From Lactarius indigo (taxonomy: Eukaryota; Basidiomycota; Agaricomycetes; Russulales; Russulaceae): a stretch of 64,000 bases of DNA. Shown in pieces: positions 5,942 to 64,000 of the stretch. The stretch spans positions 1 through 64,000 of the forward strand of contig JAFKAC010000050.1 in assembly GCA_025766275.1 (NCBI GenBank). Direction: 5' to 3'. Positions within the stretch are counted from its first letter, which is position 1; each line of letters begins with the position of its first letter. A program made the position numbers and the translations under genes. The notes below the pieces were generated by a model. That model was given only the letters and a program-made list of their open reading frames with translations, searched no databases and was not told the DNA's origin.

Positions 5942-5949
5942 TATATAAG
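5942..5949 (+). promoter_or_regulatory. TATA-like box of gene H
   Basis: TATATAAG lies about 115 bases before the first in-frame ATG (6063) of the gene H reading frame. An in-frame stop sits just before the open frame, so the ORF begins near here and has no earlier ATG. Confidence 0.45.
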
Positions 5950-6062
5950 CGAGGAAGGTGGGGAGAAGGAAGCTGAAATTGGACAGATCGTGGGCAGAAG
6001 AAGGGATTGAGGTGGGAGGAAAGGAAGGAGGACCTGTGGACATCAGCGAGGTGGCAGAAGAC

Positions 6063-8612
6063 ATGGAAGTGGAGGGGTGGGAGAAGATGGGGCAGGGAGA
6101 AGTGCTAACGGAAATCTTGGCGAACAGGCTTGAAGACTGGGGAGAGGAAGACGGGTTCAACTCGAAGCAAGCACACAAAGTGAAGCTATCGGAGATGCGA
6201 AGGCAGTACATGATGGAGGAGAAGGAGAGGAAGAGGAAAGGACTGAGGATGTTGACGGTGCGAAACCAAATTGAGATTGATGCTGATATGAAGTTGCCTG
6301 TGGGGAAGGGACAGGTGATCATGACGACGGAGAGAACGATGCTGGACTACGAGCTGACAGTGGGGAGTGTTGTGGGGCTGGGTGCGGTACTGCCTATGGG
6401 AAGGACGGCGAAGCACTTCATGCTTGAGCTAGACCTGCAGCAACCGCTGCGAGAGTTCCGAGGGAAGCGAGGGATGGTAGGATTTGACACGTGCGGGAAG
6501 ATGCTGTTCATCGGACGAGCACGGAACGAAGATGTATTCGTGGGGATGGCACCGAACGAGTTCATCCGGTGCGAAGTGGAGCCGTGCTCAGCGGGGTACA
6601 AGACAGGAAGGCCGCAACTATCGCGGCGTCACTACCGACAGGTGGTGATGATGTTTGCGTACTTCATGGGGAAGATCGGAGAGCTGTCGTTCGCGACACC
6701 TGAGGGGAGGAGTGTATACGAGCTGAACCTGGAGAGCGGGAGTGTGAAATGGGAGGAGGTGACGAACGTACTGTAAGCAGAAAGGGAGAGGTAGGAGATT
6801 GAGAAGCTGACGGATGGGATGGACTTGACAGAGAGCATGGAACGATCAAGCTAAACCAGAGGAACGCGCGGCAGCTGGACGAGCTGATGTCGGAAGGGTA
6901 CGAAGAATGGGTGGAGAATGCGCCATCGTCGTGGAAGAAGGACGGGTTCTTGGAGAAGCACTCGCCGATTGTGGTGACGTCTCGATACGGGCAAAACGTG
7001 GAAATTGGGGAAGTGGGAAACGAGAAGGTGGAGGGGTCGAACTGGGAGAAGGAGCGAGACTACTCGAAGGTTGCGTTCACGACGGTGGCACTGGCGACGC
7101 TGATAGAGTGAGTGAGAATTGATGGAAGGAGAGGAGCTGACATGGTGTGTACAGGTGCACGGAAGCACGGACGTGGGAGGAGTTCGATGGGAAAGCGCTG
7201 AAGCGGGCGTTCGGGACGCTATACGACGGGGACGACAAGAAGAGTCGAAAGAAAGTGAATGTGGAGAGGCTGGCTGTGATGAACTCAGATGGGGAGGAGA
7301 TCGGGATATACGACTCGAACGGGAGAAAGATACCACGGCGACGAGCGAAGCGACTGGAATCGGACCCGGCATGCGGAGTGCTGATGGACCTTGAAAACGT
7401 GCAGAATCTGTTCCACCCTTCGCGTGAGTACCCGCTAAGTGAAGAGGAGAGGATGGAGGAGTTTGATGAGCTTCGGGAGTCGACGGGGAGGGTGGATGTG
7501 TACCCATTGGGGTTCCTGCGAACGGTGGGAAACGTGCAGGCGGAGGGGATACCGCCGTGTTTCTACAAAGGGATCAGGGAGATCAGCAAGAAGGTGCGTG
7601 TGGATCCTAACGGAGGAGAGTCGGAGAGGAGCAGGAGCAGCAGGAGCAGCAGGAGCAGCGTGGAGAGCAGCAGGAGCAGCGAGGAGGGGATGAGAAGAAT
7701 TGGACGGACGCAGGTGATCAAGCCGATCTCGTCACAATTCTACAACTACATCTCGCACCGAGCTGCGAGCCGAGCAGGAGACATGGACACGGAGAAGGGG
7801 ACGGTGACTGCGGCGTTAGCAGGAGAATTCGCGACGACGGTGAAGGACAGAGCGACGGCAAGAGACAAGCAAGAGCAGTGCAGCGTGGCGCTACCATGGA
7901 AGCGGTTCCACAACAAGATCAGCTGCTACGACTGTCCTGTGAGCTGCCGAGGAGAAATTGTGTACGCGGTGAATGTGAGGGCGCTGAAAGTGAGAACTGG
8001 AAGGTAAGGGAAGGGCGTGGATAGGAGAGGAGAAGAAGGACGCTGACTGGTGAACAGGAGTCTGTTCACGGATGTGATCTTGCCACTGGTGAAGCTATGG
8101 GAGAGAAAGGAGGTGAGGGGCACGATCAAAGACTACCTGGTGATCCTGAAGCCAGAGGTGAGAGACTTGAGAGCAGAGACGGTGATTCGAGAAACAAGCT
8201 GAACATTGGATACACGGCAGGTATTCCCATCGCTGTTCAAGTGGGTATCGTCCCGATCACAATGTTGATCGAGATGATCTACGAGCAGGAGCTTGGGAAA
8301 GAGGGGGAAGACGAAGAACCGAGCCAGCTGAAGTTGGAGTTGTTGGCAGCACTGGAGCGGACGGTGTGCTACTGCCACACAGGGAATGCGGCGTGTTTGG
8401 CGACGTCACTGATGAGACCCCTTGGCTTGAGCCAAGGGTTGATCAAGGATGGCTTCCCGATGCTGATGCCAGTGTTCAAGGAACGGAACCTATTGGAAGC
8501 GGCGAAGCGTGGGTTGCATGTGGATGAGCGTAGATGGCCGATGAAGGACGGGCACCCTGCGATAGCATCAAGGAAGGCGCAAGAAGTCACATACTCCCTC
8601 CAGCATTTCCAT
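6063..8612 (+). CDS. Gene H, first half: unrecognised multi-exon protein
   Basis: I do not recognise the family. Exons that keep frame are 6063-6772, 6832-7107, 7155-8003 and 8058-8157, joined by GT-AG introns of 59, 47, 54 and then about 63 bases (8158-8220). The last segment, 8221-8612, needs either a further 44-base intron (8245-8288) or a one-base lesion near 8257, because the frames before and after overlap. The product is acidic and basic-charged at its N-terminus (KER-rich around codons 40-65), has a serine/arginine-rich stretch encoded near 7620-7690, a CxxCxxxC cluster near 7927-7945 and a CYCHTGNA motif near 8370. The start is the first in-frame ATG after the TATA-like box. Third codon positions are strongly G/A. 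It ends at a GTGAGT donor at 8613, directly before a palindromic array. It could be a domesticated or transposon-borne gene. Confidence 0.6.
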
Positions 8613-8651
8613 GTGAGTGAATACCCACTCGGTTGTCCACGATATTCCTCG

Positions 8652-8944
8652 CCGCGTTTGACCACCGTGGTCAAACGCGGCCACGATATTCCTCGCCGCG
8701 TTTGACCACGATGGTCAAACGCGGTCACAGTATTTGTGACCGCGTTTGGCCATCGTGGCCAAACGCGGTCGTAGTATTTGTGACCGCGTTTGACCATCGT
8801 GGCCAAACGCGGTCGTAGTATTTGTGACCGCGTTTGACCATCGTGGCCAAACGCGGTCGTAGTATTCCTCGCCGCGTTTGACCACCGTGGTCAAACGCGG
8901 CGAGGAATACTACGACCGCGTTTGACCACCGTGGTCAAACGCGG
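8652..8944. repeat. 44-base-period palindromic array, seven units
   Basis: Seven 29-base near-perfect palindromes start at 8652, 8696, 8740, 8784, 8828, 8872 and 8916, exactly 44 bases apart. The half-site is CCGCGTTTGACCA, followed by its reverse complement around a 3-base centre. The 15-base spacers are TCGTAGTATTCCTCG or TCGTAGTATTTGTGA types up to unit 6. After unit 6 the spacer appears as its reverse complement (CGAGGAATACTACGA), so polarity flips at a palindrome. It lies between the two halves of gene H. Each unit could form a DNA or RNA hairpin. Confidence 0.93.
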
Positions 8945-9019
8945 CGAGGAATACCCCACCTGTCTATCCCATTTTCTCTTTCCATTCATCCTCTCCGTTC
9001 CTTCCTCACCCTTTCACAG

Positions 9020-12949: not shown

Positions 12950-14534
12950 CCCTCCTTTTTCCATAATTGTTGAAGGATAATGTCTTTTACATCATCTGAT
13001 TCTTCTGCTACTCCATTAAGCCAATCACTGGCATGCTGTTGCAGCGGTGCTTTGAGGTGCATGTATTGTTGCTGTTATGCAGTTGCTGCCTCTTTCCATT
13101 CTTGGTAGTTTTGAGGATTGTCAAGAGTGTAAACCTGATGAACAGCACAGATGAACAGCATACTCACAGTGGACTGAAGACTGTGGTGAGATAAACTGAG
13201 CAGCTGGAAACCAGCAGAGGGAGATCTTGCAAGTGGAAGCAAAGCGGTGTTCTGCCACACAGCAGAGTGAGAACTGATAATAGTATTACAGGAGAGGGAC
13301 TTTACCTGGCACACAGCAGAGTGAGAACTGATGTGGACCAGGGCGTATAGAGTACTCTACTTATACTATACAGAGCTGTGACACTAGTATAAGGGCAGTA
13401 ACATAGAGTCACAGAATACAAGGAGTGTTGTTCTACATATAGGACAAAAGGAGTGTACCAAAGGAGAACAAGGCAACCAGAACAAAGAAAGTCTAGACAA
13501 GGATGATATCATAGTGACGTCATAATAAAGATAAGAACTAAAGGAGAACAAAGGACAGAGTACAATGAAGTGTCCAGAGTGTTCTACATGATGTCATTGT
13601 ACATGATGTCATACATGACGCAATAGTAAGCGCTAGATTGTACAGATCAAATTCATGTAATCTACAAGTCCAGTTAATCTAATCTAAAGCAGTCCATGCT
13701 GCTAGTCCAGTCCGTACGAGCCACTAAGTGCACAAGGGTCACTTATCAACAAAACCTTCTTGTAGAGGTCTTTTGGTAGTCCCCCCATGAATAGGTTGAG
13801 GGTCTGGGGGTCATCAAGTTGATATTGAGCTCAGCATACTAGTTGCTTGAATTGGGTGCAATACTCATATAGATTTCCCTCAATCATTTTGAGTCCTTTT
13901 TTAAGCTTGTATTGAGCTTGTTCCTGTTCCATGGTGTTTCTAAAGTGTTGCATAAAGCTACATGTGACTTCATTCCACAGTCCTTCACTTGTTCAAGATA
14001 TGCCAGCTTGTATCTGGCCATTGAGCCACGTAAGCATGGCTAATACCCATTTGCTGATGTTAACCCCTTGATGAAGGAAAGAAAGAGTAGCACTCTTCAA
14101 TAAGGCATTGCCATGATACTTTCATCTGCATTCATGCCCCAATAGAGTGCCATTGTGTGAGGAATGCCTCTACTTTGGCATGTTCTCTGTCAAATACTGT
14201 GGGTGCTTCACCAGCTAGCTTGTTATTTTGGGGAGGGGTGATGAGACCTGCACCTGGTATTCCTCCTTCTGATGTTCCTCCAGGGAACCCCCCAGGGAAT
14301 CCTCTGAATCCCCCACCTTGTGGGGGTGGTCCTTCCCCTGGTAGTCTTCTGGGAGGCCCCCTGCTGCTAGGTGGGTCTGGTACATCTGGCCCAATGGCAC
14401 AGTGTATAGTGACATTGTTGTTGGTCATTCAATGCCTAGTTTGAGGGTTGATAGGGGCCAGTATGGCCTGGGCTTCTTGGGTGATACATTGTTGTTCTTC
14501 TTGGGCCAACTGGTCAATCACTTTGCTAGCTAGT
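12950..14534 (-). pseudogene. Decayed family-B gag, C-terminal part
   Basis: On the minus strand this follows the gag of the family-B element (19851-21794). The C-terminal tail near 12955-13050 is followed, after an internal deletion of the zinc-knuckle region, by the capsid-like region (13080-13135 and 13757-14160) and the Gly/Pro linker (14215-14430). The frame is destroyed by stops and many CpG-to-TpG changes. It is interrupted by a solo LTR at 13136-13751 and by the younger family-B element at 14535-22351. The rest of the same gag continues at 22357-24098. Confidence 0.85.
13136..13751 (-). mobile_element. Solo LTR, family Y (full-length copy)
   Basis: 616 bases starting TGATGAACAGC and ending TTATCAACA, with a perfect 5-base target duplication, AAACC, at 13131-13135 and 13752-13756. 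It is the longest copy of family Y here; the copy at 156-591 has an internal deletion. It contains short repeats of a TGACGTCAT/ATGATGTCAT type near 13510-13620. Confidence 0.88.
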
Positions 14535-25553: not shown

Positions 25554-25751
25554 TAGCCTGTGTTCACTTAGTGGGTCTAAATGGACATACAGATATGGAC
25601 TGCTGTAGATAAGATTAATTGGACTTTCTAGATTATATATTTTGATCTGTACAACTTGCAAGATCCCCTCTGCTGCTTTCTAGCTTCTCAGCTTATCTCA
25701 CCACAGTGTTCAGTTTACTGTGAATATGCTGTTCATCTATGCTGTTCATCA
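25554..25751 (+). mobile_element. Solo LTR, family Y, internally deleted
   Basis: Starts TGTTGATAAGT and ends CTGTTCATCA, the ends of family Y in plus orientation, but only 198 bases long. The flanks AGGTT and AGTTT differ by one base and probably represent a worn target duplication. Confidence 0.75.
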
Positions 25752-25860
25752 AGTTTCATCTAAGAACTTGGTCTGAGTTGGATGCATATACAGAGTTACC
25801 TCAGTTGAAATTAGTCAATTGCACATTGTGGTTACATCTGGTCTTGTTATCTGACCTCCT

Positions 25861-26470
25861 TCAGTGAAATTGATTGATTGATTGATTGATTATAGATTGG
25901 TGTTAGATTGTGTCTTTGTCTCTTACCAGTGAAACATTTGCTTTGTGGAGTTGGGGGTTTATATTGTTAGGTAAGGTGAAAAGGTGTGATGTGATGTTGA
26001 CAGCCTTTATAACTTGCGAGGCAGGTAGTAATATTATAGTCTGTATTTTGTCATGGAATCATATCTGTGAGATGTGCATAAGGAGGCTTCCATTATCTGT
26101 GACCCATCTGTAATATACCAATGGCAAGCACAATGTGCTGCTCTGTATAGCATGGATTGCTCGCGCTGCTCGCTCTCCAGCATACAGAGCAGCACATTGT
26201 GCTTGCCATTGGTATATTACAGATGGGTCACAGATAATGGAAGCCTCCTTATGCACATCTCACAGATATGATTCCATGACAAAATACAGACTATAATATT
26301 ACTACCTGCCTCGCAAGTTATAAAGGCTGTCAACATCACATCACACCTTTTCACCTTACTTAACAATATAAACCCCCCAACTCCACAAAGCAAATGTTTC
26401 ACTGGTAAGAGACAAAGACACAATCTAACACCAATCTATAATCAATCAATCAATCAATCAATTTCACTGA
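25861..26470. repeat. Long near-perfect palindrome 1
   Basis: Arms 25861-26148 and 26182-26470 (about 289 bases each) are reverse complements with only a few mismatches. The loop of about 33 bases (26149-26181) is GC-rich and starts AGCATGGATTGCTCGCG. The outer ends are TCAGTGAAATTGATTG and its complement, with a TTGA microsatellite. The loop resembles that of the palindrome at 63087-63513, although the arms do not. No coding potential is apparent. A transcript would fold into a hairpin of nearly 290 base pairs. Confidence 0.95.
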
Positions 26471-26480
26471 TAAACATGAG

Positions 26481-26808
26481 CCTTCAAAGTTGATCTGTAT
26501 CAATAGAAGGGTGATATTTGTACTCAAAATATATGTTTTATTGTATTTCGAGTTGAATGGCATGTTCAGGGTGCCCATACGATCCCGCGTTTGTCCATTG
26601 TGTCTAAACGCTGGTCAAGTTATGGCCCTCATTTATTTATTCAATATGTATATATGGGGACCATGTAATAATGTCCCGCGTTTAGGCATGATGGACAAAC
26701 GCGGGACCGTACTGGCACCCTGAATATGCCATTCAACTCGAAATACAATAAAACATATATTTCGAGTACAAATATCACCCTTCTATTGATACAGATCAAC
26801 TTTGGAGG
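26481..26808. repeat. Long palindrome 3, built around array cores
   Basis: Arms 26481-26614 and 26675-26808 pair with few mismatches; the loop of about 60 bases is AT-rich. The inner 30 bases of each arm are a copy of the palindromic unit (CCCGCGTTTG type) that makes up the adjoining array at 26809-27194. It starts ten bases after palindrome 1 ends. Confidence 0.9.
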
Positions 26809-27194
26809 CCCGCATTTGACCATCATGGTCAAACGCGGGCCAAGTAATCATCCCGCATATGACCATGATGGTCAAATGCGGGCCAAGTAATGGTCCCGCG
26901 TTTGACCATCATGGTCAAACGGGCCAAGTAATGGTCCCGTGTTTGTCAATGATGGTCAAACGCGGGCCAAGTAATGGCCCCGCGTCTGACCATGATGGTC
27001 AAACGCGGGCCAAGTAATGGTCCCGCGTTTGTCAATGATGGTCAAACGCGGGCCAAGTAATGGTCCCGCGTTTGTCAATGATGGTCAAACGCGGGCCAAG
27101 TAATGGCCCCGCGTCTGACCATGATGGTCAAACGCGGGCCAAGTAATGGTCCCGCGTTTGTCAATGATGGTCAAACGCGGGACCATTACTTGGA
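26809..27194. repeat. 43-base-period palindromic array, nine units
   Basis: Nine units carry the half-site CCCGCGTTTGACCAT and its reverse complement. The ATGGTCAAACG marker recurs at 43-base steps (26828, 26871, 26914, 26955, 26998, 27041, 27084, 27127, 27170; one step is 41 because of a 2-base loss). The spacer is CCAAGTAATGG. After the last unit it appears reversed (CCATTACTTGG). The core is the same as in the array at 8652-8944, but the spacer is not. Some left half-sites are worn (GTCAA for GACCA), which weakens the palindrome. Confidence 0.92.
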
Positions 27195-28559
27195 TATACG
27201 CGGTAACCCTAAGTCAAAATAGACCCAGAACCCACAGTGAACCCTGAACCCAGTTATCATTCGTCTATATATAATGTTGTTATTGCTTTAACCGGGCCGG
27301 TGGAACCTACAATTCTGCGCGTCATTGCAGAAGGTCCAGTGGAATCGTGGGCCGGGGCACTTATCTCTTGATTTATGGCTTATCTCAGCCTTTTCTTCGT
27401 CATTTTCCTTTCTTCACGTGATTGTGTCCTTCGTACCGCCGTTTGTCGAGGTCGTGAGGGTGAAACCGTAACAAAACAGTTGCCAAATAGACACGTCAGT
27501 CAATTCGACACAACAGCACAGCAACCACCACCAAACATGAATATACAATATCCAAGCAAGGACAAACTGGACACGTCAGCTCACTGCTCACCAACACAAA
27601 CACCCTGGAAGCCTCTGACGAAGAAAACAAAACTGTCAAAGCCACCTGGAAACACGTCTTGTTGGGCTATGGCCCGGAACGGACAAAGTCCGGCAAACTG
27701 AGGCTAGATTGACATATTAGATAATCGTAATATTAGCGTAGTTAAACGATTATCTATGAATAATATCTAGGAGAGAGGAGCATACGCTCTCCTCAGGAAC
27801 TCCCACTCACACATTGTTCACCTATCCAGCTGCCCGCCTCCGTAAAACTCTATACGTCTTCCACCCAGAGCCCCCCCCCCCAACTGGCTCGAGATCTGTG
27901 AGGTTTTAGTGGGTAGGAGACCACACTGCACCTAACCGCGGCTGCCCTGTGTCTGAGTCCCACACTATCCCCCCTACCAGGGGATGTGCGTAAGCGCATT
28001 TTCCCTCACAAACCGGTTCCCCTCTAGGCCCGGCAACACAGTGTGCTAGGTAGAGCTGATGGTAAATCTCCTACTACTTAGCACTTTATTTACGGGTATT
28101 TAGTCATCTACACGTAGACAAACTAGATATCTAAAATAAAAGTGCCCTTCTAAAAAAAAAAAGAAACAGTACAAACGTTTCGAATTTGATTAGCAATCAT
28201 TTCCTAAAAGGAAATGATGCAGCGGTCACGTGACTTTGCGTGATGGATTCAGCTAATTTGCACGACGCGACACGTCTTCACTTTCTTTCCCTCTACTACC
28301 ATGTCTTCCCTCGCCACGACCTTCCAATCTTCTGCAGGAAATAATTATCCCACATGGTCGTCGTGTCCACGAATTCGTGTTCATGCTTCCAGACTGCATG
28401 CAGTATTGGTTTGGATGGCTTGGATGACTTGAACCTACCGTGACACGCTGTACGCGCTGTACTCTAGATATTTTTATCCAGAGTGTGTGCCTCCCTGTGT
28501 TCGCACCACCCCTCATCTCTGTTGGCGAGCTAGCTCCAACCGGCACACTATGACTATTC
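27195..28559. other. Unannotated spacer
   Basis: No gene is recognised. It contains short C runs near 27870 and an A run at 28153-28163 that could mark the 3' end of a SINE-like or processed insert, but no target duplication was found. Confidence 0.4.
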
Positions 28560-32915: not shown

Positions 32916-33888
32916 ATAGTGGTTTGTTTGAATCAGAGATGTGTCGCTCCAAAGGAACTGAGGGTGCGCGAAGGTGCGGCACACTGGGGGACGATGAGAA
33001 CAAGACGAACTTGCCCTACAGAGCTCTAAGCCCTGAGGGAAAAGGAACTAATATTTGCTGACTTAATAGGTGTAGATACAAGAAGTTTTTACACTGTCAA
33101 ACAGAGATGTAGATCTCAATGTGTAGTGGAGGCCAGGGAGAAACCCAGCGGGGTCACAAGACAAGGGGAAGGTATACTGGCCGGAGTGCGGGAATGTCTG
33201 GTCCGCCAGTGCGGTGCGGGAAAGTAACTAGGAGATGCAAAATGACAGTTTAACCTAGCCAGCCATGAGCTATGTGTATTACTGCAAGCACGAATCGCAC
33301 TGGCATCGCCATTTGGAACTCACACGTGCAACTCGGAAGTGCAGGCAGTTTGTGTACGTATACAGGTCCTAGAAGAAGCCAGGGTTCAGGTTGGTTCGAG
33401 TGGGTGAGATCGTTGAAATTCAGCCAGATTGAAAGAAGTCAAGACACGAGTCCATGGAGAGTGGCATCAAGAAGAGGGACTCACTACAGGGCTCTTGATA
33501 GTGCCAAGAGCTGTGGTCGGAGAAGTCAGTCAATCGACATCAAATGGCCTGTTAGGTCTGTCTCAGGTCTTGGGGCCTTGAGACCGCTCCGGAGCCTTGC
33601 AAGAAACTCATCAAGGTGTAGGGGTGTAGGGAGTATAAGTATGAAGAAGTCAACCCAAGGGAAAGACGTTGACAGAGGATAACAGAGACGATAATCGATA
33701 CAGTAGGTCATGCGGTAGTAAAATGGTACGATTCCGTTCAGAGGCAGCTCACACGTTTGAGAATGGGATAGTATCAGTCCGAAGGCCAATACCAATGTGA
33801 AATCAGGCTCGAGGTCTTATATAACAAGCAAAGTACATATTAGAAGTGCTTATATGAGGAGCCAACGCGTGCTAGTAGGTGACGGCGA
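32916..33888. other. Unannotated spacer
   Basis: No gene, repeat or RNA is recognised in this stretch. Confidence 0.4.
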
Positions 33889-34622
33889 GGCTTGGTGGCG
33901 TTGGTATTGATACTGAGGTGGCTGGGGTGTCTGTATGTGTCAGGCAAGTGTAGTAAAGTACTGATCCTTGCAGCAGCACCAAGCTGTGGTATCATCCCGA
34001 ACCGCGTGCATCAACTCTACATTGGAGTCGCAATACCAAGGACGTTATATGCGGTTGACGTATGGGGAAGTCACGCCGCAAAGAACGAAACATCAAGTGA
34101 AATTGGGAAGATAAAAAGACGAAGAAACAAGCTGAACTCCGTACAAAGAGACGGCAGCCTAGCCATCACAGGCGGGCTTCGCACCTCTCCAACTGACACG
34201 CTTAACGCACATGCAGACACCATCCCGATGCAGCTCAAAATAGAAAAACATCTCTTCAGGGAAACATCCCGCATCGCAACGCTACCTCTGGAGCACCCCC
34301 TTTACAAACCCACAAGAAAAGCCACAAACAAGAACATCAAGAGACACAAGTCCCCCTTCACGACGTCATGCAAACGTTCAACATCAAGCCAAACGAATTC
34401 GAAACAATTCCGGCCATAGGAACAAACCCAGCAACGGCACACAGGAGACCATTGAGCATTGAAATAGTGAGCAACAAAGAAGCATCCAAGAAAGCTGACA
34501 AAGAAGGGAGCAAGGAAATCAAATTCTACTCAGATGGCTCGGCACATGAAGGGAAGGTCGGCGCTGCCGCCATCCTGCTCAGACCAGGCAACGACCCACA
34601 CGCACTACACTTCCACCTGGGT
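33889..34622 (+). pseudogene. LINE reverse transcriptase/RNase H remnant
   Basis: The plus-strand product near 33892-34350 has the LINE thumb signature (RTLYAVDVWGSHAAKN followed by QRDGSLAITGGLRTSPT), typical of Tad/I-type fungal LINEs. A frame change near 34370 leads to the start of an RNase H domain with its first catalytic aspartate (FYSDGSAHEGKVGAA near 34525-34570). The domain is cut at about 34622 by the minisatellite that follows, so the rest of RNase H and the 3' end are missing. This is a relic, different in sequence from the LINE at 2443-5465. Confidence 0.82.
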
Positions 34623-37425
34623 TATGTATGTCTTGTCTTGTCACTGGACCAAACCTGGACTATGTGTACTGGAAAGAGCTGGTCTGTGTGTGTGTGTATG
34701 TGGCGTCTTGGACGCCTGTGCACACATTACATCCTGACTCTCAAACATCCAGTATGTCATATATGTCATGTCTTGTCACTGGACCAAACCTGGACTATGT
34801 GTACTGGAAAGAGCTGGTCTGTGTGTATGTGCGTGGCATCCTGGACGCCCGTACACGCATCATGCTCTGACTCTCAAACATCCAGTATGTCATATATGTC
34901 ATGTCTTGTCACTGGACCAAACCTGGACTATGTGTACTGGATAGAGCTGGTCTGTGTGTATGTGCGTGGCGTCCTGGACGCCTGTACACGCATCACGCTC
35001 TGACTCTCAAACATCCAGTATGTCATATATGTCATGTCTTGTCACTGGACCAAACCTGGACTATGTGTACTGGAAAGAGCTGGTCTGTGTGTATGTGCGT
35101 GGCGTCCTGGACGCCTGTACACGCATCACGCTCTGACTCTCAAACATCCAGTATGTCATATATGTCATGTCTTGTCACTGGACCAAACCTGGACTATGCG
35201 TACTGGATAGAGCTGGTCTCTGTGTATGTGTGTGGCGTCCTGGACGCCCATACACGCATCACGTCCTCACTTTCAAACATCCAGTATGTCATATATGTCA
35301 TGTCTTGTCACTGGACCAAACCTGGACTATGTGTACTGGATAGAGCTGGTCTGTGTGTATGTGTGTGGCGTCCTGGACGCCCGTACACGCATCACACTCT
35401 GACTCTCAAACATCCAGTATGTCATATATGTCATGTCTTGTCACTGGACCAAACCTGGACTATGTGTACTGGATAGAGCTGGTCTGTGTGTGTGTGTGTA
35501 TGTGGCGTCTTGGACGCCTGTGCACACATTACATCCTGACTCTCAAACATCCAGTATGTCATATATGTCATGTCTTGTCACTGGACCAAACCTGGACTAT
35601 GTGTACTGGATAGAGCTGGTCTGTGTGTATGTGCGTGGCGTCCTGGACGCCCGTACACGCATCACGCTCTGACTCTCAAACATCCAGTATGTCATATATG
35701 TCATGTCTTGTCACTGGACCAAACCTGGACTATGCGTACTGGATAGAGCTGGTCTCTGTGTATGTGTGTGGCGTCCTGGACGCCCATACACGCATCACGT
35801 CCTCACTTTCAAACATCCAGTATGTCATATATGTCATGTCTTGTCACTGGACCAAACCTGGACTATGTGTACTGGATAGAGCTGGTCTGTGTGTATGTGT
35901 GTGGCGTCCTGGACGCCCGTACACGCATCACACTCTGACTCTCAAACATCCAGTATGTCATATATGTCATGTCTTGTCACTGGACCAAACCTGGACTATG
36001 TGTACTGGATAGAGCTGGTCTGTGTGTGTGTGTGTATGTGGCGTCTTGGACGCCTGTGCACACATTACATCCTGACTCTCAAACATCCAGTATGTCATAT
36101 ATGTCATGTCTTGTCACTGGACCAAACCTGGACTATGTGTACTGGATAGAGCTGGTCTGTGTGTATGTGCGTGGCGTCCTGGACGCCTGTACACGCATCA
36201 CGCTCTGACTCTTAAACATCCAGTATGTCATATATGTCATGTCTTGTCACTGGACCAAACCTGGACTATGCGTACTGGATAGAGCTGGTCTCTGTGTATG
36301 TGTGTGGCGTCCTGGACGCCCATACACGCATCACGTCCTCACTTTCAAACATCCAGTATGTCATATATGTCATGTCTTGTCACTGGACCAAACCTGGACT
36401 ATGTGTACTGGATAGAGCTGGTCTGTGTGTATGTGTGTGGCGTCCTGGACGCCCGTACACGCATCACACTCTGACTCTCAAACATCCAGTATGTCATATA
36501 TGTCATGTCTTGTCACTGGACCAAACCTGGACTATGTGTACTGGATAGAGCTGGTCTGTGTGTGTGTGTGTATGTGGCGTCTTGGACGCCTGTGCACACA
36601 TTACATCCTGACTCTCAAACATCCAGTATGTCATATATGTCATGTCTTGTCACTGGACCAAACCTGGACTATGTGTACTGGATAGAGCTGGTCTGTGTGT
36701 ATGTGCGTGGCGTCCTGGACGCCCGTACACGCATCACGCTCTGACTCTCAAACATCCAGTATGTCATATATGTCATGTCTTGTCACTGGACCAAACCTGG
36801 ACTATGCGTACTGGAAAGAGCTGGTCTGTGTGTGTGTGTGTATGTGGCGTCTTGGACGCCTGTGCACACATTACATCCTGACTCTCAAACATCCAGTATG
36901 TCATATATGTCATGTCTTGTCACTGGACCAAACCTGGACTATGTGTACTGGAAAGAGCTGGTCTGTGTGTATGTGCGTGGCGTCCTGGACGCCCGTACAC
37001 GCATCACGCTCTGACTCTCAAACATCCAGTATGTCATATATGTCATGTCTTGTCACTGGACCAAACCTGGACTATGTGTACTGGATAGAGCTGGTCTGTG
37101 TGTATGTGCGTGGCGTCCTGGACGCCCATACACGCATCACGCTCTGACTCTCAAACATCCAGTATGTCATATATGTCATGTCTTGTCACTGGACCAAACC
37201 TGGACTATGTGTACTGGAAAGAGCTGGTCTGTGTGTATGTGCGTGGCGTCCTGGACGCCCGTACACGCATCACGCTCTGACTCTCAAACATCCAGTATGT
37301 CATATATGTCATGTCTTGTCACTGGACCAAACCTGGACTATGTGTACTGGATAGAGCTGGTCTGTGTGTATGTGTGTGGCGTCCTGGACGCCTGTACACA
37401 CATCACGTCCTGACTCTCAAGATCC
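34623..37425 (+). repeat. 133-base minisatellite, about 21 copies
   Basis: Units are 133 bases, or 135-137 where a GT run is longer. Each contains GGCGTCCTGGACGCC, two 7-base arms around one base. A higher-order period of 536 bases (four units) is visible at 35353, 35889 and 36425. Because 133 is not a multiple of three, long open frames of up to 191 codons arise that read all phases; they are not called as genes. A last worn unit (to about 37490) resembles the units of the array right of gene K. Confidence 0.95.
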
Positions 37426-37894: not shown

Positions 37895-40704
37895 ATGGCC
37901 TTCCCACACAACACATTGCCCACCGAGCAGTTCACCCTCGAAGAGTTCACCATCTTGATGGAAGATGCTGCATCACGCGAGCCAATGGAATACATTAACA
38001 CTGCTCTCTGTGGTCGATTCCTCATTGATCAAGTACCACACCGTGCCTCCATCAATGCTAGACAAGGGCTCCATCCCCCAGCTATACCACGTTTCACAAG
38101 AGACTTTGATTCTGCCATTGGGGTTACTCGCAACTTGCCTTACACGAGTCCATTCAATGTTTTTCCAGTTGCAAGTTTTAGGGACACCCTTACGAAACCA
38201 AACCATGTCAAAGGTCCAATTTTTTTACCAGATGTGAGTACTGTATATCCTTGGTAACGTAGTTGTACTTTGTCCTTACACCATCGATTCTCAGGGAAAG
38301 GTGACCTATGCCCCCCTCGAGAAAATCCCTAATTGCGCCTTCGGTACTGTCGGGAGTAGGCATCTCACAAGGATATTCTTCCCAAGTCTGTACAGTGCAT
38401 CTGTGATGCCATGCCTGCGCCAGGAGCAACTCGCAAAACTCTATGATGACTGCATCTGGCCTGCAGTCATGGAGGTCATACCAACCCAGGCGAGCCATTG
38501 GCCTGTCAACTATCACAGTGCCATGGTACAATCACAGGATACTGCTGGCCATCGACACCTTGGCTCTTTGGCGGTCCCTCCTATCTTCCTTGTAGAGTTT
38601 TGTACGGCTCTGACAAATCGTCTGGACGACATCCCCGAATTTGAGATGGCATATTTCGGACATGAACTTAGAGGGCTCAAAGGTGGTACTGCTCATGATG
38701 ACGAAGGAACACTTCCTGAAGAAGCCTTCAATACATTCTTTGAGCATGTGGATACAGCACGTATTGACCAAGATAACTGGCTTGTCGACGTTGGACTGGA
38801 GGTCTATGATCCGGGAATGGTCGTTCAATGGTCAAGACACTGCCACCCAGCAATTCTCAGGTACCTGATGCCTTTGTTGAGCGATGCAGAGATAGCGGCA
38901 TTGCAGAGACGAAAGACGTTCCATCTCGACAATGTCTCCCAACTGGATGACTTTGCGGGCTTCCATTGCGAACCTGGCCCATTCGGGGGGAGGAATGACA
39001 TCAACTACATCAATGTCTACACCACAGACAAATGCCCAACATATCAGCTCCACCAAGGTATCTGGAGGCGCCGGAGGTGCAAGGAGCTCTTCCCAAAGAT
39101 GCTCGAGAAGCTGGTAGACCAGCTCGAAAAAATGTCGGAGACATACAAGGCTTGTGCTGGTAGCATGGGCCAGAAACCCCAAGAAGGTTGCGCTCGTCTC
39201 GAAATTCGCGTCCCATTGGTACTCGCCCAAGATGCTCTTAGAAGTGCACCTGAGGACATTATCGCAGGGTGGACTTACACATTGTTGCCAATTATGTGGT
39301 GGTGAGATCTTCCGTCAATTTATGCATGGTCATCCTCATATGATATCTAGGCACTTCAAATATTTTCGCATGGGTGCAATATATACTGCACTGGGTATGT
39401 TGATGGAGACACCAGTCCGATACAGACCGATGCGCTCGTCACTCACCCTTGGTGCCATCCTCATCTACATGTTGAATGCCATCAACTACCGTCCAGCAGA
39501 AGGGCGAGCGGAGACAGAGCTCACACGAACTTGTTGCTGGAACCTCTACGAAACAGAGCCTCATGAGGATTCTGACCCGGTGCCCATTATGCTGGCCCAT
39601 GGTCTCTATTTCATCTCAGGCATCACACTACAGCAAGGAGTTGCTCTGCAAATGGGAGGAGGTGACAGTATTGCCATGGATTCCATTTGCTGGCTGTATG
39701 GCATCACCGATGAGCAAGACTTCAACATCAGATTCAATGTCAAGTCCTGGCATGGTAATTCACAGGAGAGGAACAAAAACCGCATTCAAAACCGTCGGAA
39801 GCATCCTGTAGACATACGGCATGTCGTGGCTGATGAAGAGTTGAAAGCTCGAGATAGGACCCTCAGTGATCAAGGCATTGCCATGATGCCCCTGCCTCAA
39901 GAGGCCGGTCCTGATATTGCCCCTCTGGATGTAGATCAGACGGATGAAGGTCAGGGTGGCTCAGAAAGCATCGACGATATCATCGCACGGATCTGGAGGC
40001 AGTTCCCTTACGATCTCCTCGAAAATGCACCCAATCGCAGGTCCAACCGTGAATCAAGCCATCTACTCATGACAAATGAAGAGCGGAAAGAAGCAACCAC
40101 CAAGATTTTCAAGAACACCGACCTTCGGAGGCTGTTCTCTCAAGTGGTAGTCAAGGTCGTGAGTCCCAAGGACTGGGAGAACCTCCAGTTTAGAAGGTTT
40201 TTCCCATCAAAGGGATTTGTGCCCCCAACACGCTTCCAAAACTTCCCGTATATGCTATACTTTCAATTGTGGAACACTCTGATGGAGAGGTTGACTGAGG
40301 ATGATTCCAAAATTGTCCGCAGATCGATTTGGAAAGAATTCAGGACCTTTCAATGGCTCCCATTGACAGACACAGATCGAGTATGGAACACAAAGAAGGT
40401 GACGGGACCGCAATGGACACACCTCCCATTTGATGACAACAAACCTGTGGTACGAATCGCACTCAATCAGACCCTAGTGCAGGATGCCAATCGGGTTTGG
40501 TTGTTTGGGAACAACTCCAAGGACAACTCTGATGAGTGTGTAGCAAATTCTGATGAATTTGTGGCACATTCCGATGACTCTGACTGGGGATCGGATTCGG
40601 ACATAGAAATTGTGGAAGAGAACCAAGAACATGTGAGTGCTGATGATGAGGGGGGATCAGATATGGAAATAGAAATCGTAGAAGAGTATCATGCACATGC
40701 ATAA
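37895..40704 (+). CDS. Gene K: intact three-exon gene, unknown protein with C2H2-like motif
   Basis: I do not recognise the family. The exons are 37895-38233, 38295-39218 and 39268-40704, joined by GT-AG introns of 61 and 49 bases, both phase 0, giving 899 residues without any internal stop. The start is an ATG in good context (AAAAATGGCC) after a TATA box. At the head of exon 3 (about residues 427-450) there is a C-x2-C-x13-H-x4-H arrangement (CQLCGG...HMISRH), like a C2H2 or BED-type zinc finger. It spans the region directly after the second splice, which supports that splice. The C-terminus, from about residue 830, is very acidic (DDSDWGSDSDIEIVEE). No signal peptide or membrane helix is seen. 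It is the only clearly undamaged host-style gene in the window. It lies between two related minisatellites in inverted orientation, which suggests it moves or is amplified with them, or is a transposon-derived protein. Function unknown. Confidence 0.8.
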
Positions 40705-40779: not shown

Positions 40780-42630
40780 CACGCTCAACACGGAGCTCCA
40801 AGCTTGTCTCCTTTGTAAACTCGTGATCTGCTTGACCTCAAGAGTCAAGACGTGAGACTTAAGTGTGCACAGGTGTCCAGGATGCCGCTCACACATGCCA
40901 GCTCTTTTAGACCCACATAGTAGTCCTGTTGAACAAGATACAACACATGACACACTGGAAGGAAGAGACTTCGGCGGTCAGGATGTGGAGTGTGCATAGG
41001 CGTCCAGGACGCCACTCACACACACTGGCTTTTCCAGACCATGCAGTCCAGTTGGACAAGATAAAACACACATAATAGACTAAAAGGAAAGGATTTGAGA
41101 ATTAAGACGTGAAGTGTGCTCAGGCGTCCAGGACACCACCCTCACATACAGGCTCTTTCCGGTCCATGCAGTCCAGTTGGACAAGACACGACACGCGTGA
41201 CACATTCATAGAATAGAACTTTGAAAATCAGGACATGATGTATGCACAAGCATCCAGGACACCATGCATACACACCGGTGATGCATGTTATATCTTGTCC
41301 AATAGGACTTCACGGTCAGAAAGAGCCAAGCGTGTGTGGGTGGCGTCCTGGATTCCTGTGCACACTTCATGTCTCAACCGTCAAGGTTCTTCCTTGACTG
41401 TGCTATGCATGTCATATATTATCCAACAGGACTGTGTGGCCTAGAATAGAGCCAGTGTGTGTGAGTGGCATCCTGGACGCCAGTGCACACATCACATCCC
41501 GACTCTCGAAGTCTCTTCCTTGAGTGCATTATGTGTGTCATATCTCATCCAACTGGACTGTGCAGTCCAGAAAGAGCCTGTGTGTGTGGGGGGCGTCCTG
41601 GACGCCTGTACACACTTCATGTCCTAACTCTCGGGGTTTCTTCCTTCCAGTGTGTCATGCATGTCATATCTTGTCCAACAGGACCATGTGACTTTGAAAG
41701 AGTCAGTGTGTGTGAGTGGCGTCCTGGACGCCAGTGCACACATCACATCTTGACTCTCGAAGTCTCTTCCTTGAGTGCATTATGTGTGTCATATCTCATC
41801 CAACTGGACTGTGTAGTCCAGAAAGAGCCTGTGTGTGTGGGGGGCGTCCTGGACGCCTGTACACACTTCATGTCCTAACTCTCGGGGTTTCTTCCTTCCA
41901 GTGTGTCATGCATGTCATATCTTGTCCAACAGGACCATGTGACTTTGAAAGAGTCAGTGTGTGTGAGTGGCGTCCTGGACGCCAGTGCACACATCACATC
42001 TCGACTCTCGAAGTCTCTTCCTTGAGTGCATTATGTGTGTCATATCTCATCCAACTGGACTGTGTAGTCCAGAAAGAGCCTGTGTGTGTGGGGGGCGTCC
42101 TGGACGCCTGTACACACTTCATGTCCTAACTCTCAGGGTTTCTTCCTTCCAGTGTGTCATGCATGTCATATCTTGTCCAACAGGACCATGTGACTTTGAA
42201 AGAGTCAGCGTGTGTGAGTGGCGTCCTGGACGCCTGTACACACTTCATGTCCTAACTCTTGGGGTTTCTTCCTTCCAATGTGTCATGCATGTCATATCTT
42301 GTCCAACAGGACCATGTGAGTTTGAAAGAGTTAGCGTGTGTGAGTGGCGTCCTGGACGCCAGTGCACACATCACATCCCGACTCTCGAAGTCTCTTCCTT
42401 GAGTGCAATATGTGTGCCATATCTTGTCCAACTAAACTGTGTGGTCCAGAAAGAGCCTGTGTGTGGGGGGGGCGTCCTGGACGCCTGTGCACACTTCACT
42501 CCCTGACTGTCAAGTCTCTTTCTTCCAGTGTGTCATGCGTGCCATTTCTTGCCCAACAGGACTGCAAAGGTCCAAAAGGGCCAGTATGTGTATGTGTGTG
42601 GCATCTTGGATGCTTGTGCACACTCAGTAA
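40780..42630. repeat. 125-base minisatellite with polarity switch
   Basis: Units of about 125 bases, with a two-unit period of 251 bases at 41465, 41716 and 41967, carry the same GGCGTCCTGGACGCC core and a related backbone (GTCATATCTTGTCCAAC, then AAAGAG) as the 133-base array to the left. From about 40850 to 41235 the units are in reverse orientation; from about 41280 on they are forward. Gene K therefore has arrays pointing at each other on its two sides. Confidence 0.9.
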
Positions 42631-56955: not shown

Positions 56956-58622
56956 GAAGTTGGCAAAGCTGTCCCAACTCGTTTCATCAGCATTGGTAGA
57001 GTGATTCATGTGGTTTTCTACCTTTAATTGGTTTTTCTGAGTTCATACCCAATCGCCGACGTGGGGTCTGCAGATGTATGACAGCATCGGGTGAGTCTGC
57101 TTGATCAGTTTGATCATCATACCTGTTTGTCTATTGACCGTTTTCCGCAAGTGAAACTGGAACAAGAACTGTTCTCCTTTTTCCAGATCTTCATTGAAGC
57201 TATTGGGCGATGCCCTGCAGAGTTCCCTTCCACGGTGCGTCCGAGTTTTTGTTGTGGTTTCGTTCGACGATTCTGAGCCAGCGGTGGGTGATGCATCTCC
57301 CTCAGTGGGGCTTCGGTTTACTTTGCTAGTCGTTCTTGTTTCTGACGTGTCTCTTCCATGGGCATTTTGTTCCAGTGTGGTAGAGTCCTCGTGTCGTGTG
57401 GACCATCTCGGCGATTCTTGCACGTGTTCCTTTTTGTCCACCCCTATCGAACAGGGACCTCTTATCGATTCTAGTTGATCCGTCGGGTATTCTACCTCAA
57501 TTGTCGTCCCTTTCCGGGCTCTTGGTCATTCGATGCGTGTTCTCGTGTGACCTTGTTGGACAAGCTTCAACTTATCCGACTAGGTGCGTCTCCTCGTGTA
57601 TTTTTGCTACGTGGGCCTCAACTTATCTGACTCGGTGCGTCTCCTCGTGGACTTTTGTTACACGGGCTTCGACTTGGTTGGTTCATTATCTGCTGCTGGT
57701 GTGCTGATGATCGTAATCGATCTACCAGAGTTCTGGTTTTAGTGGCTACGGCACCGCTAAGTGCTGGGGCATTCAGCGTGGCTTTTCGGAGTTCAACACC
57801 AGGGATCGTATTGATCGATATTTCGGATTGATTTCGCTGCTGGATGTGGGTTCGTAATTTGTCATTCATTTGTATATGCTGGTTTTCTGATGGACCCTCC
57901 AGGTCGTCGATGGGTGGCCTCAACACATCCGATGTTGAGTTACTGCTTACACAATGGAGGTCAGTCAGGTCTGAGGGGCTCGGAGTCCTCGTTTCCATAA
58001 TTGGTGTCAAGTTAGCCAGTTTCTCGCGTCGATACCCCTGTCGTAATTTCGTGCGAGGAGCAATCAATTGCTGTTCAAAACTTTCGAGTTTAATGTGGTG
58101 CCACGTCATTGGTGGCATTCGTGAAACTTTGTTTTTGTTTATCGATTTCATCGTGCCGCCATATAACTCCAGCGGTACTTCTTCCTGCCTTCCCGTCTGT
58201 GAGTACCAGTCGAGCAGGTCAGTGTCGTTCCGGAGCAGTATCTCTAGGGACCCGTGCCATTCCTTCATGGGTCGTGCCTTTGTCGTGATTCATTTCCGCA
58301 TCGAGTTTACTTCAAAGTTTACGTGACATCTGTTCCGCTTAGATTCATTCGTGCGCGAGTTCAGGGTTCTGGTTGAGTCGGGTGTTCCATCCTCGATCAT
58401 CCATTTGCGCATCATACTATCTGCACAGGCTTCGACTTTGGGGTCCTGTCCATGTGTGGTCTGCTGTCCACGTAGAGCCGTAGTTCGTGTGTCATAGGTG
58501 TCGGGCAAGTTCGTGTTCGGGTTCGGGTGCTCGGCGTATTGAGCGTGAGGTTCATTTGTCAGGGGATCGGTGCATAATCGGGTGTGTTCGGTATCGTCAG
58601 GTTGCTCCGCGCTCGTCCTACA
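56956..58622. other. Internal region of BTB retroelement (part 2)
   Basis: Minus-strand frames at 57043-57441, 57618-58268 and 58290-58622 are open but carry no domain I recognise. This continues the retroelement body interrupted at 49274. Confidence 0.45.
57549..57690 (+). repeat. Short tandem repeat, about 61-base unit
   Basis: Two and a half diverged copies of a unit reading CAACTTATC..GACT..GGTGCGTCTCCTCGTG and then a TTTTGNTAC...GGGC stretch. Confidence 0.7.
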
Positions 58623-62420: not shown

Positions 62421-62515
62421 CCTTGCAGGTGGTCAAAAACCCCCACAACCAAAAGGCTCATTCACATGCACAACCAATCTCCAGAGCCACTGACTGTGTA
62501 TACTATGACTTTGTT

Positions 62516-62936
62516 CTACCTTTAGCTATATCCTTATTGTGATGTCACTATGATATCATCTTTGCTTGGACTTTCTTTGTTCTGTGCTCCTTATTCTCCA
62601 TTTGTGTATTCCTTTTGTCCCAGATGAAGAACAATGTCTTATACTCTGTGACCCTATGTTACATCCCTTGTACTAGTGTCACCCCTGTAAACAGTATAAG
62701 TAGTGTAGCATGTACACTGCTGGTCCACATCAGTTCTCACTACTTATGTGCCAGGTATGTTTCTCCCTTCAATCCTTTGATGTCTAACATCAGTTCTCAC
62801 TGCTTATGTGCCAGACTCTTTGCTTCAGTGCAACTTCCCTGTTCACCTCTGCTTCCAGCTTACTTGCATATCTCACCACATTTCCCTTGCCACTGTGAGT
62901 ATGCCCTTTCTATGTATGCTGTTCATAATTGTGTTG
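62516..62936 (+). mobile_element. Family-Y LTR fragment
   Basis: Matches the reverse complement of 13136-13751 from its middle to near its end (TATGATATCATC, then CATCAGTTCTCACT, and CTGTTCATAA). It carries a TATAAGTAG promoter near 62695. The 5' part is missing and no target duplication is present. Confidence 0.75.
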
Positions 62937-63086
62937 TAGATTTGTCTCAGACTCTCAGTAGTCAGTTATGATGCCTCAGTAAGCAGTAATTGTCATGGAC
63001 TTTTATAATATCAGTCAGCAGTAGTAATGTATCACCAATGGTTGGCCCATGAATTATAAAAGTCACTCTGCAAGTGGATGATTGGA

Positions 63087-63513
63087 TTGTTGTGTTCACA
63101 TAGGGGGCAGCTTTTGAATACATAAATGTAAGTTTTGATGATGATCTGCAGGTAAACTGTCTGATTGTTGATATCCCATGTGCAGTTAATAGTGATATGA
63201 CTTAAGGGTGTAATACAGTCCATGATTTGTATCACTGGGATGTTGTACTGTGATTTTGAGCTGAAGAGCTGTACTGTACAGCATGGCTTGTTCGCGTTGT
63301 CGCGTTGCTCACTCGCCACTATACAGTATAGCTCTTCAGCTCAAAATCACAGTACAACATCCCAGTGATACAAATCATGGACTGTATTACACCCTTAAGT
63401 CATATCACTATTAACTGCACATGGGATATCAAAAATCAGACAGTTTACCTGCAGATCATCATCAAAACTTACATTTATGTATTCAAAAGCTGCCGCCTAT
63501 GTGAACACAACAA
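63087..63513. repeat. Long near-perfect palindrome 2
   Basis: Arms 63087-63281 and 63319-63513 (195 bases) pair with few mismatches. The loop (about 37 bases) is CpG-rich and reads AGCATGGCTTGTTCGCG at its left border, very like the loop of palindrome 1, while the arms are unrelated. A transcript would form a hairpin of nearly 200 base pairs. Confidence 0.95.
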
Positions 63514-63536
63514 ACCCTAACCCTATTTTAGGGTTT
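63511..63536. repeat. Telomere-like motif
   Basis: Two CCCTAA units followed, after TTT, by TTAGGG lie immediately at the outer edge of palindrome 2. Basidiomycete telomeres are usually TTAGGG repeats, so this looks like a short interstitial telomeric seed in inverted form. Confidence 0.6.
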
Positions 63537-63795: not shown

Positions 63796-64000
63796 TATGG
63801 TGGTGTATGTGTAAGGAGTCTAGGACTCCTTTTCTCAGTGTTATGCTTGATAAATTGGGCTATAAGAGGGTGGTGTGCATGTGAGGAGTCTAGGACTCCT
63901 TTTCTCAGTGTCATACTTGAGAAATTGGGCTATAAGAGGATGGTGTGTACGTGAGGAGTCCTGGACTCCTTTTCTCAGTGTTGCTCTAGAAATTGGGCTG
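63796..64000. repeat. 70-base minisatellite with palindromic core
   Basis: The core GGAGTCTAGGACTCC (or GGAGTCCTGGACTCC in the third copy) recurs at 63815, 63885 and 63955, exactly 70 bases apart, with TATAAGAGG and TTTTCTCAGTG in each unit. The array runs off the window. Confidence 0.88.

Follow-up and report, generated by a model that had tools for sequence, protein, structure and literature searches.

Coprina is an endonuclease-deficient Penelope-like element of basidiomycetes, hammerhead ribozymes are frequent in endonuclease-deficient Penelope-like elements, and telomeric LINEs and HeT-A/TART have 5'-truncated copies joined one behind another. FoTeR, a fungal telomeric LINE, is described as lying at chromosome ends together with tandem repeats. 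Endonuclease-deficient Penelope-like elements, among them Athena of rotifers, are reported to prime at exposed chromosome ends and to occur in fungi, and telomeric repeats are described as added to their truncated 5' ends (PMC3846280). The same account takes the palindromes at inverted junctions of endonuclease-bearing Penelope elements to be best read as products of self-priming, and describes the fungal, endonuclease-free members as without the inverted-repeat organisation of Penelope proper (PMC3846280). Penelope-like elements have been reported at two chromosome ends of Agaricus bisporus that are without telomeres (PMC7473861). In yeast, breaks that lie close to short inverted repeats have been demonstrated to undergo foldback priming (PMC10622511), and palindromes of mammalian sex chromosomes are reported to show gene conversion between their arms and, rarely, inversion (PMC3723533, PMC8981503).

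The window analysed here, a stretch of 64,000 nucleotides from the edible mushroom Lactarius indigo (C238:1-64000; all features are given on the forward strand), contains two long palindromes, as a sequence-only reading of this DNA had claimed. Palindrome A (25861–26470) has arms of about 288–289 nt, at approximately 25861–26148 and 26182–26470. These consist of an inner pair (25953–26148 with 26182–26377) and an outer pair (25861–25960 with 26371–26470), each ungapped and 99% complementary, and the inner arms are separated by a centre, or loop, of 33 nt (26149–26181). Palindrome B (63084–63516) has arms of 195–198 nt (63084–63281 and 63319–63516) that are 97% complementary around a 37-nt centre (63282–63318), which is about 8 nt longer than in most B copies examined. 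The two centres are homologous, with 81% identity over 37 nt (blastn, E = 5e-4) and a local alignment score of 35, compared with a best score of 26 among 2,000 dinucleotide shuffles, none of which did as well. By eye, the likeness spans about 48 nt and takes in the adjoining stem. The left arms of A and B, by contrast with their centres, are no more alike than expected by chance, as 431 of 500 shuffles scored as high. The proposal of a common centre between unrelated arms therefore held. The accompanying remark that the loops differ mostly by C/T changes was half right for the 17-mer, in which one change is C/T and the other is A/C.

Searches of the 90.3-Mb assembly (291 contigs) revealed that neither palindrome is unique. 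The A query found at least 11 close copies (A) and at least 12 copies at 85–88% identity (A'), and the B query found at least 14 copies. A short contig-edge fragment of A lies at C235:2-110, and a truncated palindrome is present in C247. The sequence-only reading had proposed searching the genome with the loop alone, and the result bore it out: a 26-nt loop pattern with up to three mismatches matched 32 places (reversed control, 0), 31 of which were palindrome centres (11 A, 10 A' and 10 B). The sole match outside long palindromes, with two mismatches, is at C112:1536531-1536556. By eye, a frame resembling nucleoside diphosphate kinase lies near it. Six of the 37 copies (four B and two A') had no match to the pattern; three of these B copies (C14, C238 and C112) carry about 8 extra loop nucleotides, and the B copy in C221 has lost about half of its loop. 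Because the C221 copy persists in this state, the loop is dispensable for the persistence of a copy. Among the matches of both genome searches, no locus had one complete unduplicated arm. Since the arms belong to repeated families (23 A/A' and 14 B loci) and no complete single arm occurs among these matches, they are not local DNA, contrary to the earlier suggestion that they were duplicated from it, and local duplication of unique flanks is rejected as an origin. The palindromes instead belong to repeated mobile-element families that are crowded near contig ends. We consider it somewhat probable that they are 3' segments within related, multi-copy elements whose behaviour is that of retroelements joining exposed chromosome ends by the 3' end, with hairpins formed by self-priming and kept by exchange between the arms.

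The palindromes occupy the 3' part of the elements, in which an LTR-like module is followed by the hairpin, a tandem array of short palindromes and a sharp 3' end. In the A element of the window, part of the module (25654–25752) lies just upstream of the palindrome and is 89% identical to a solo copy near 13.1 kb. Downstream of the palindrome is a second inverted duplication (26480–26809), in which a spacer occurs twice, in opposite orientations, around position ~26645; the A' copy L046 has the spacer once on this side. Next comes an array of 43-bp units (26809–27181), each with the short palindrome CCCGCGTTTGACC..GGTCAAACGCGGG, and the element ends sharply at 27275 with the terminus ATTCGTCTATATATAAT (27259–27275). 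Elsewhere in the window, a tandem array of 44-bp units (8643–8954) is about 75% related to the A array, and open frames without a Pfam match (5949–8705) adjoin it. The B element has the same order of module, palindrome and array, and ends in a 3' motif, GGTACTGCAAAGTGGCTCATAAC. Its module (62509–62930, limits approximate) is 75–80% identical to the A' module, and its array of 68–70-bp units with GGAGTCC..GGACTCC starts at 63799, reaches the window edge at 64000 and continues past it. Farther along the same contig are the B 3' motif, at 65488–65557, and an A-type 3' end, at 68330–68346.

These 3' ends recur throughout the families. The terminus ATTCGTCYATATATAAT was found downstream of all 11 A copies and all 12 A' copies, at a distance of 8.5 kb in C251. 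The B 3' motif was found downstream of all 14 B copies, at 11 kb in C269, and in nine of the 14 it is present in 2 to 5 tandem copies. In three B ends examined (L055, L058 and L070), the motif continues as CATAACCCTA until the sequences diverge. The sequence-only reading had held that the centre is conserved and the ends are not; its first half stands, and its second half fails against one A/A' terminus in 23 of 23 copies and the B motif in 14 of 14. An A-type 3' end lies 0.7–3.2 kb beyond the B end in three of the 14 B copies (two of these were sequence-checked), which blurs the limits of the elements there. The sequences beyond the A/A' ends vary, with 14 different 3' flanks among 19 copies examined. 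Ten A copies accounted for five of these flanks, one of which is common to six copies, and nine A' copies had nine different, unrelated flanks beside one exact 3' end.

The LTR-like module is less informative. Its solo copy (~13130–13747) lies inside a gypsy gag frame and has, by eye, 5-bp duplications (GGTTT) and TG..CA ends. Because the module is very common in the genome (1,423 first-look candidates, of which 40 were scored), finding it next to both palindromes argues only moderately for common descent and may be a coincidence.

The elements are also oriented. Of the 37 copies, 36 were counted (C190 was left out), and 32 of these have the 3' end directed away from the nearest contig end. 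The four exceptions are C20, C258 (A), C109 (A') and the fold-back copy in C274. The C20 copy points outward from its nearer contig end; a telomere array lies at the far end of this contig (168,627 nt, array to 168622), so that this copy is directed away from the telomere. On the 11 contigs of at least 400 kb, all 13 copies have their 3' end inward and lie within 211 kb of an end. The copies counted do not represent independent cases: A and B sit in stretches that are 99% identical between contigs, and six A copies have one 3' flank. The A' copies, which have separate 3' flanks, are a more independent set, and all five on long contigs point inward. Several contigs end at common points. The starts of C24, C143, C247 and C281 and the end of C268 coincide at one point in the B segment, 1,250 bases before the equivalent of window position 57000, and C172, C193 and C269 have a different end in common, at a distance of 14.9 kb from the middle of A. 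These shared ends (five in the B segment and three near A) are likely to be assembly breaks in long identical repeats.

The telomere repeat of this genome is TTTAGGG, present at no fewer than six contig ends among the matches listed (C11, C20, C28, C35, C67 and C82). A search for (TTAGGG)4 gave no match in the genome, and a pattern with variable spacing returned TTTAGGG instead. This repeat is plant-like, and the literature turned up by a limited search did not mention a TTTAGGG telomere. Two carrier contig ends examined (the start of C247 and the end of C172) are without the telomere repeat, so the term chromosome end is inferred here rather than seen. In C247, a B end runs into one more telomere-type unit (together CCCTAAACCCTA), after which comes a 5'-truncated A copy that begins at the equivalent of window position 26070. 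This telomeric junction is a single case, with only one 7-nt unit beyond B's own end.

Intact counterparts of the sequences into which A' copies were joined provided a view of the attachment sites. Of 17 loci in the target search, 11 were without a target in the window, L029 was without a terminus in the stretch used and L024 is the window itself. At the remaining four, the intact A' target is in the window, and each of the four targets matches the element end over AT or a longer stretch (TAAT, AAT, AT and AT), an overlap of 2–4 nt. One intact counterpart, ATTA at 33278–33281, corresponds to the place at which an A' 3' end is joined in C20 (L053); in C20 the target was found with its left side only. 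The surrounding target (33180–33500) is present with one side only in C20 and at both C274 sites and is whole at 11 other places. The three one-sided targets may represent one event.

Comparison of the arms showed that they evolve together. Arms were compared in eight of 11 A, nine of 12 A' and 13 of 14 B copies (C221 was left out of B). In eight of the nine A' copies the arms are identical over 326 columns, and in the ninth (L054) they differ at six. Between an A copy (L028) and an A' copy (L049), 29 substitutions are found in both arms and there are 27 other differences. These are unevenly placed: the inner five bins hold 25 two-arm substitutions and one other difference, compared with four and 26 in the outermost bin, a region in which A has ceased to be palindromic. 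Across 16 copies there are 39 variable columns, and at 35 of them both arms of every copy agree. This count omits L044 (C268) because it is an A/A' chimera, in which the left arm is of type A and the right arm of type A', with the switch about 40 nt from the loop. L029, L034 and L054 each have one private change present in both arms. At two sites the arms differ in four A copies, which are nearly alike themselves, and other copies have one or the other of the two states fixed. Relative to the 3' end, seven of 33 copies have an inverted centre (1 of 11 A, 4 of 9 A' and 2 of 13 B); this count omits, from the 37, C221, C190, C274:12494 and the fold-back C274:209700. The orientations were sequence-checked at 19 A/A' loci, all agreeing, and the fold-back shows both directions. 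Flipped centres occur even among A' copies whose left flanks are more than 99% identical. Concerted arms and flips are signatures either of conversion and inversion between the arms or of one arm being copied anew repeatedly. The A and B hairpins resemble the palindromes of mammalian sex chromosomes, as described, in arm-to-arm conversion and inversion (PMC3723533, PMC8981503), but their arms are only 0.2–0.3 kb long and lie inside multi-copy mobile elements.

Two loci indicate that A/B elements underwent inverted duplication more than once, with the loop or another short palindrome as the pivot. The first, L046 (C274:209323-210966), is a complete head-to-head A' copy with a terminus at each end, pivoting on the loop (inverted terminus, short array, arm, loop, arm, array, terminus). 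The second, C258:284686-286675, has B 3' motifs on both sides in opposite orientation, and in its middle (L089; 241 bases examined) the array turns on the short palindrome of one unit. Another array in the window, at ~40834–41764, contains a weak fold-back (72%). The sequence-only reading had seen the loop as a pivot that provokes inverted duplication. Recurrent duplication around short pivots agrees with this (L046, L089 and window 26480–26809), whereas the array-unit pivot of C258/L089 shows that the loop is not the only one.

Like termini lie inverted on both sides in L046 and C258, which would also be expected of a Foldback-type DNA transposon. According to this explanation, the internally repetitive inverted ends would be terminal inverted repeats (TIRs), A, A' and B would be decayed or chimeric copies, and exchange between the TIRs would produce concerted arms and flips, as in Galileo. 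A and B do share long, internally repetitive inverted arms with Foldback and Galileo as these are described, and the tandem arrays within the arms resemble their TIRs (PMC3573991, PMC4079207). The fixed points of A and B, however, are the loop and one 3' end rather than two inverted ends. An inverted partner of the terminus was found on the other side in only one of 12 A' copies and in none of 11 A copies (17-mer, up to one mismatch), and L046, the only copy with both ends in hand, has by eye no target-site duplication. Polarity and one-sided targets are left unexplained as well, and we regard a Foldback-type origin as unlikely.

The copies sit in large segments that are 99% identical from contig to contig, and yeast double-strand breaks near short inverted repeats are reported to give inverted duplications (PMC10622511). 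Both observations fit a history of subtelomeric recombination only, in which ectopic exchange and break-induced copying would have carried old hairpin repeats from one chromosome end to another, with no retroelement activity, and palindromes would have arisen by foldback priming at broken ends. Plain exchange between similar ends, however, does not place one exact 3' end beside nine unrelated sequences, as observed in the nine A' copies, and this makes recombination as the whole explanation decidedly improbable. A rolling-circle (Helitron2/Helentron-like) element would account for that single fixed 3' end and for the absence of an inverted partner from most copies, as such elements have asymmetric ends, make no target duplication and bear tandem repeats and a hairpin close to the 3' end; for Helitron2, asymmetric inverted repeats and hairpins at the termini are described as typical (PMC5148889). 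We nevertheless find this explanation very hard to sustain, because no fixed base directly follows the A-type terminus in 16 different flanks compared, the hairpin is many times longer than those described in PMC5148889, and polarity is left unexplained. Scarcely credible is a hairpin-RNA locus, in which the palindrome would be transcribed and diced to small RNAs that silence relatives and the loop would be kept for processing: RNA folding is near complete (298 pairs in 610 nt and 204 pairs in 433 nt) and upstream, in the same orientation, is the LTR-like module, which by eye contains a TATA-like box, but the window has no Rfam match at gathering score, the C221 copy of B was kept despite its damaged loop, and DNA exchange alone accounts for the flips and the both-arm changes.

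We therefore return to retroelement-like attachment of 3' ends to chromosome ends. In this model, the 3' end of the element RNA (UAAU in A and CCCUA in B) would pair with the 3' end of a chromosome, which would in turn prime reverse transcription of the paired RNA. The new strand may sometimes fold back on a short inverted repeat, either the loop or an array unit, and prime its own copy, which would yield a hairpin. Arm-to-arm exchange would afterwards keep the arms equal and flip the centre. The loop would be common to A and B by descent from one ancestor, and the arms would have been replaced or made anew around that pivot. A bolder version posits a family of mushroom retroelements that uses this pairing to cap chromosome ends that are broken or eroded, through UAAU in A and through CCCUA in B, which matches the host's unusual TTTAGGG telomere, and that carries a self-renewing hairpin whose loop is a fixed pivot and whose arms can be swapped, re-copied and flipped repeatedly. 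We offer this version tentatively and think it rather less than probable as a whole. The element family was not found in the literature searched, although it may still have been published. Independent of mechanism, about 37 natural hairpins with one kind of centre allow arm exchange, centre inversion and fold-back birth to be traced base by base. If end attachment is true, a mushroom with TTTAGGG telomeres would have a second, retroelement-based way to extend its chromosome ends, and self-priming by end-attaching retroelements would become testable.

The A and B stretches examined, which are 3' parts of elements, contain no reverse transcriptase, and for this reason we assign them to no class, including Penelope-like elements. 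Their only coding trace is a stretch of 61 amino acids upstream of A', the end of an open frame of 96–120 amino acids that was found in 11 places. This peptide had no Pfam match, no database match among eight candidates (proteins of ~270–870 amino acids) and only weak tblastn matches in the window (best E 0.026). None of the Rfam families, including hammerhead ribozymes, matched at gathering score within the window. The proposed attachment of A and B at exposed ends would resemble that of endonuclease-deficient Penelope-like elements as described, and the proposed self-priming of the hairpins would have its parallel in the endonuclease-bearing Penelope elements (PMC3846280). Unlike Penelope-like elements as described in PMC3846280, A and B have a long hairpin with a shared loop, arrays of short palindromes, arm conversion and flips, and a simple Penelope match is weakened because the fungal members are described there as lacking the inverted-repeat organisation of Penelope proper. 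With the telomeric LINEs of fungi (MoTeR and FoTeR) and HeT-A/TART of Drosophila, as described, A and B share a presumed location at chromosome ends, tandem repeats and a 5'-truncated copy joined behind another element, but the A and B parts examined contain no LINE domain.

Two further open frames of the window, at 38238–40704, have no Pfam family; the first (38238–39305) is 99% identical to a Lactarius indigo protein and has 69 related proteins at E ≤ 0.001, several of them from Lactarius, and an array with short palindromes follows the frames at 41281–42564. At 33883–37420, frames without a Pfam match resemble, by eye, the end of a LINE reverse transcriptase and the start of an RNase H, and run into a tandem array of about 21 units of 133 bp.
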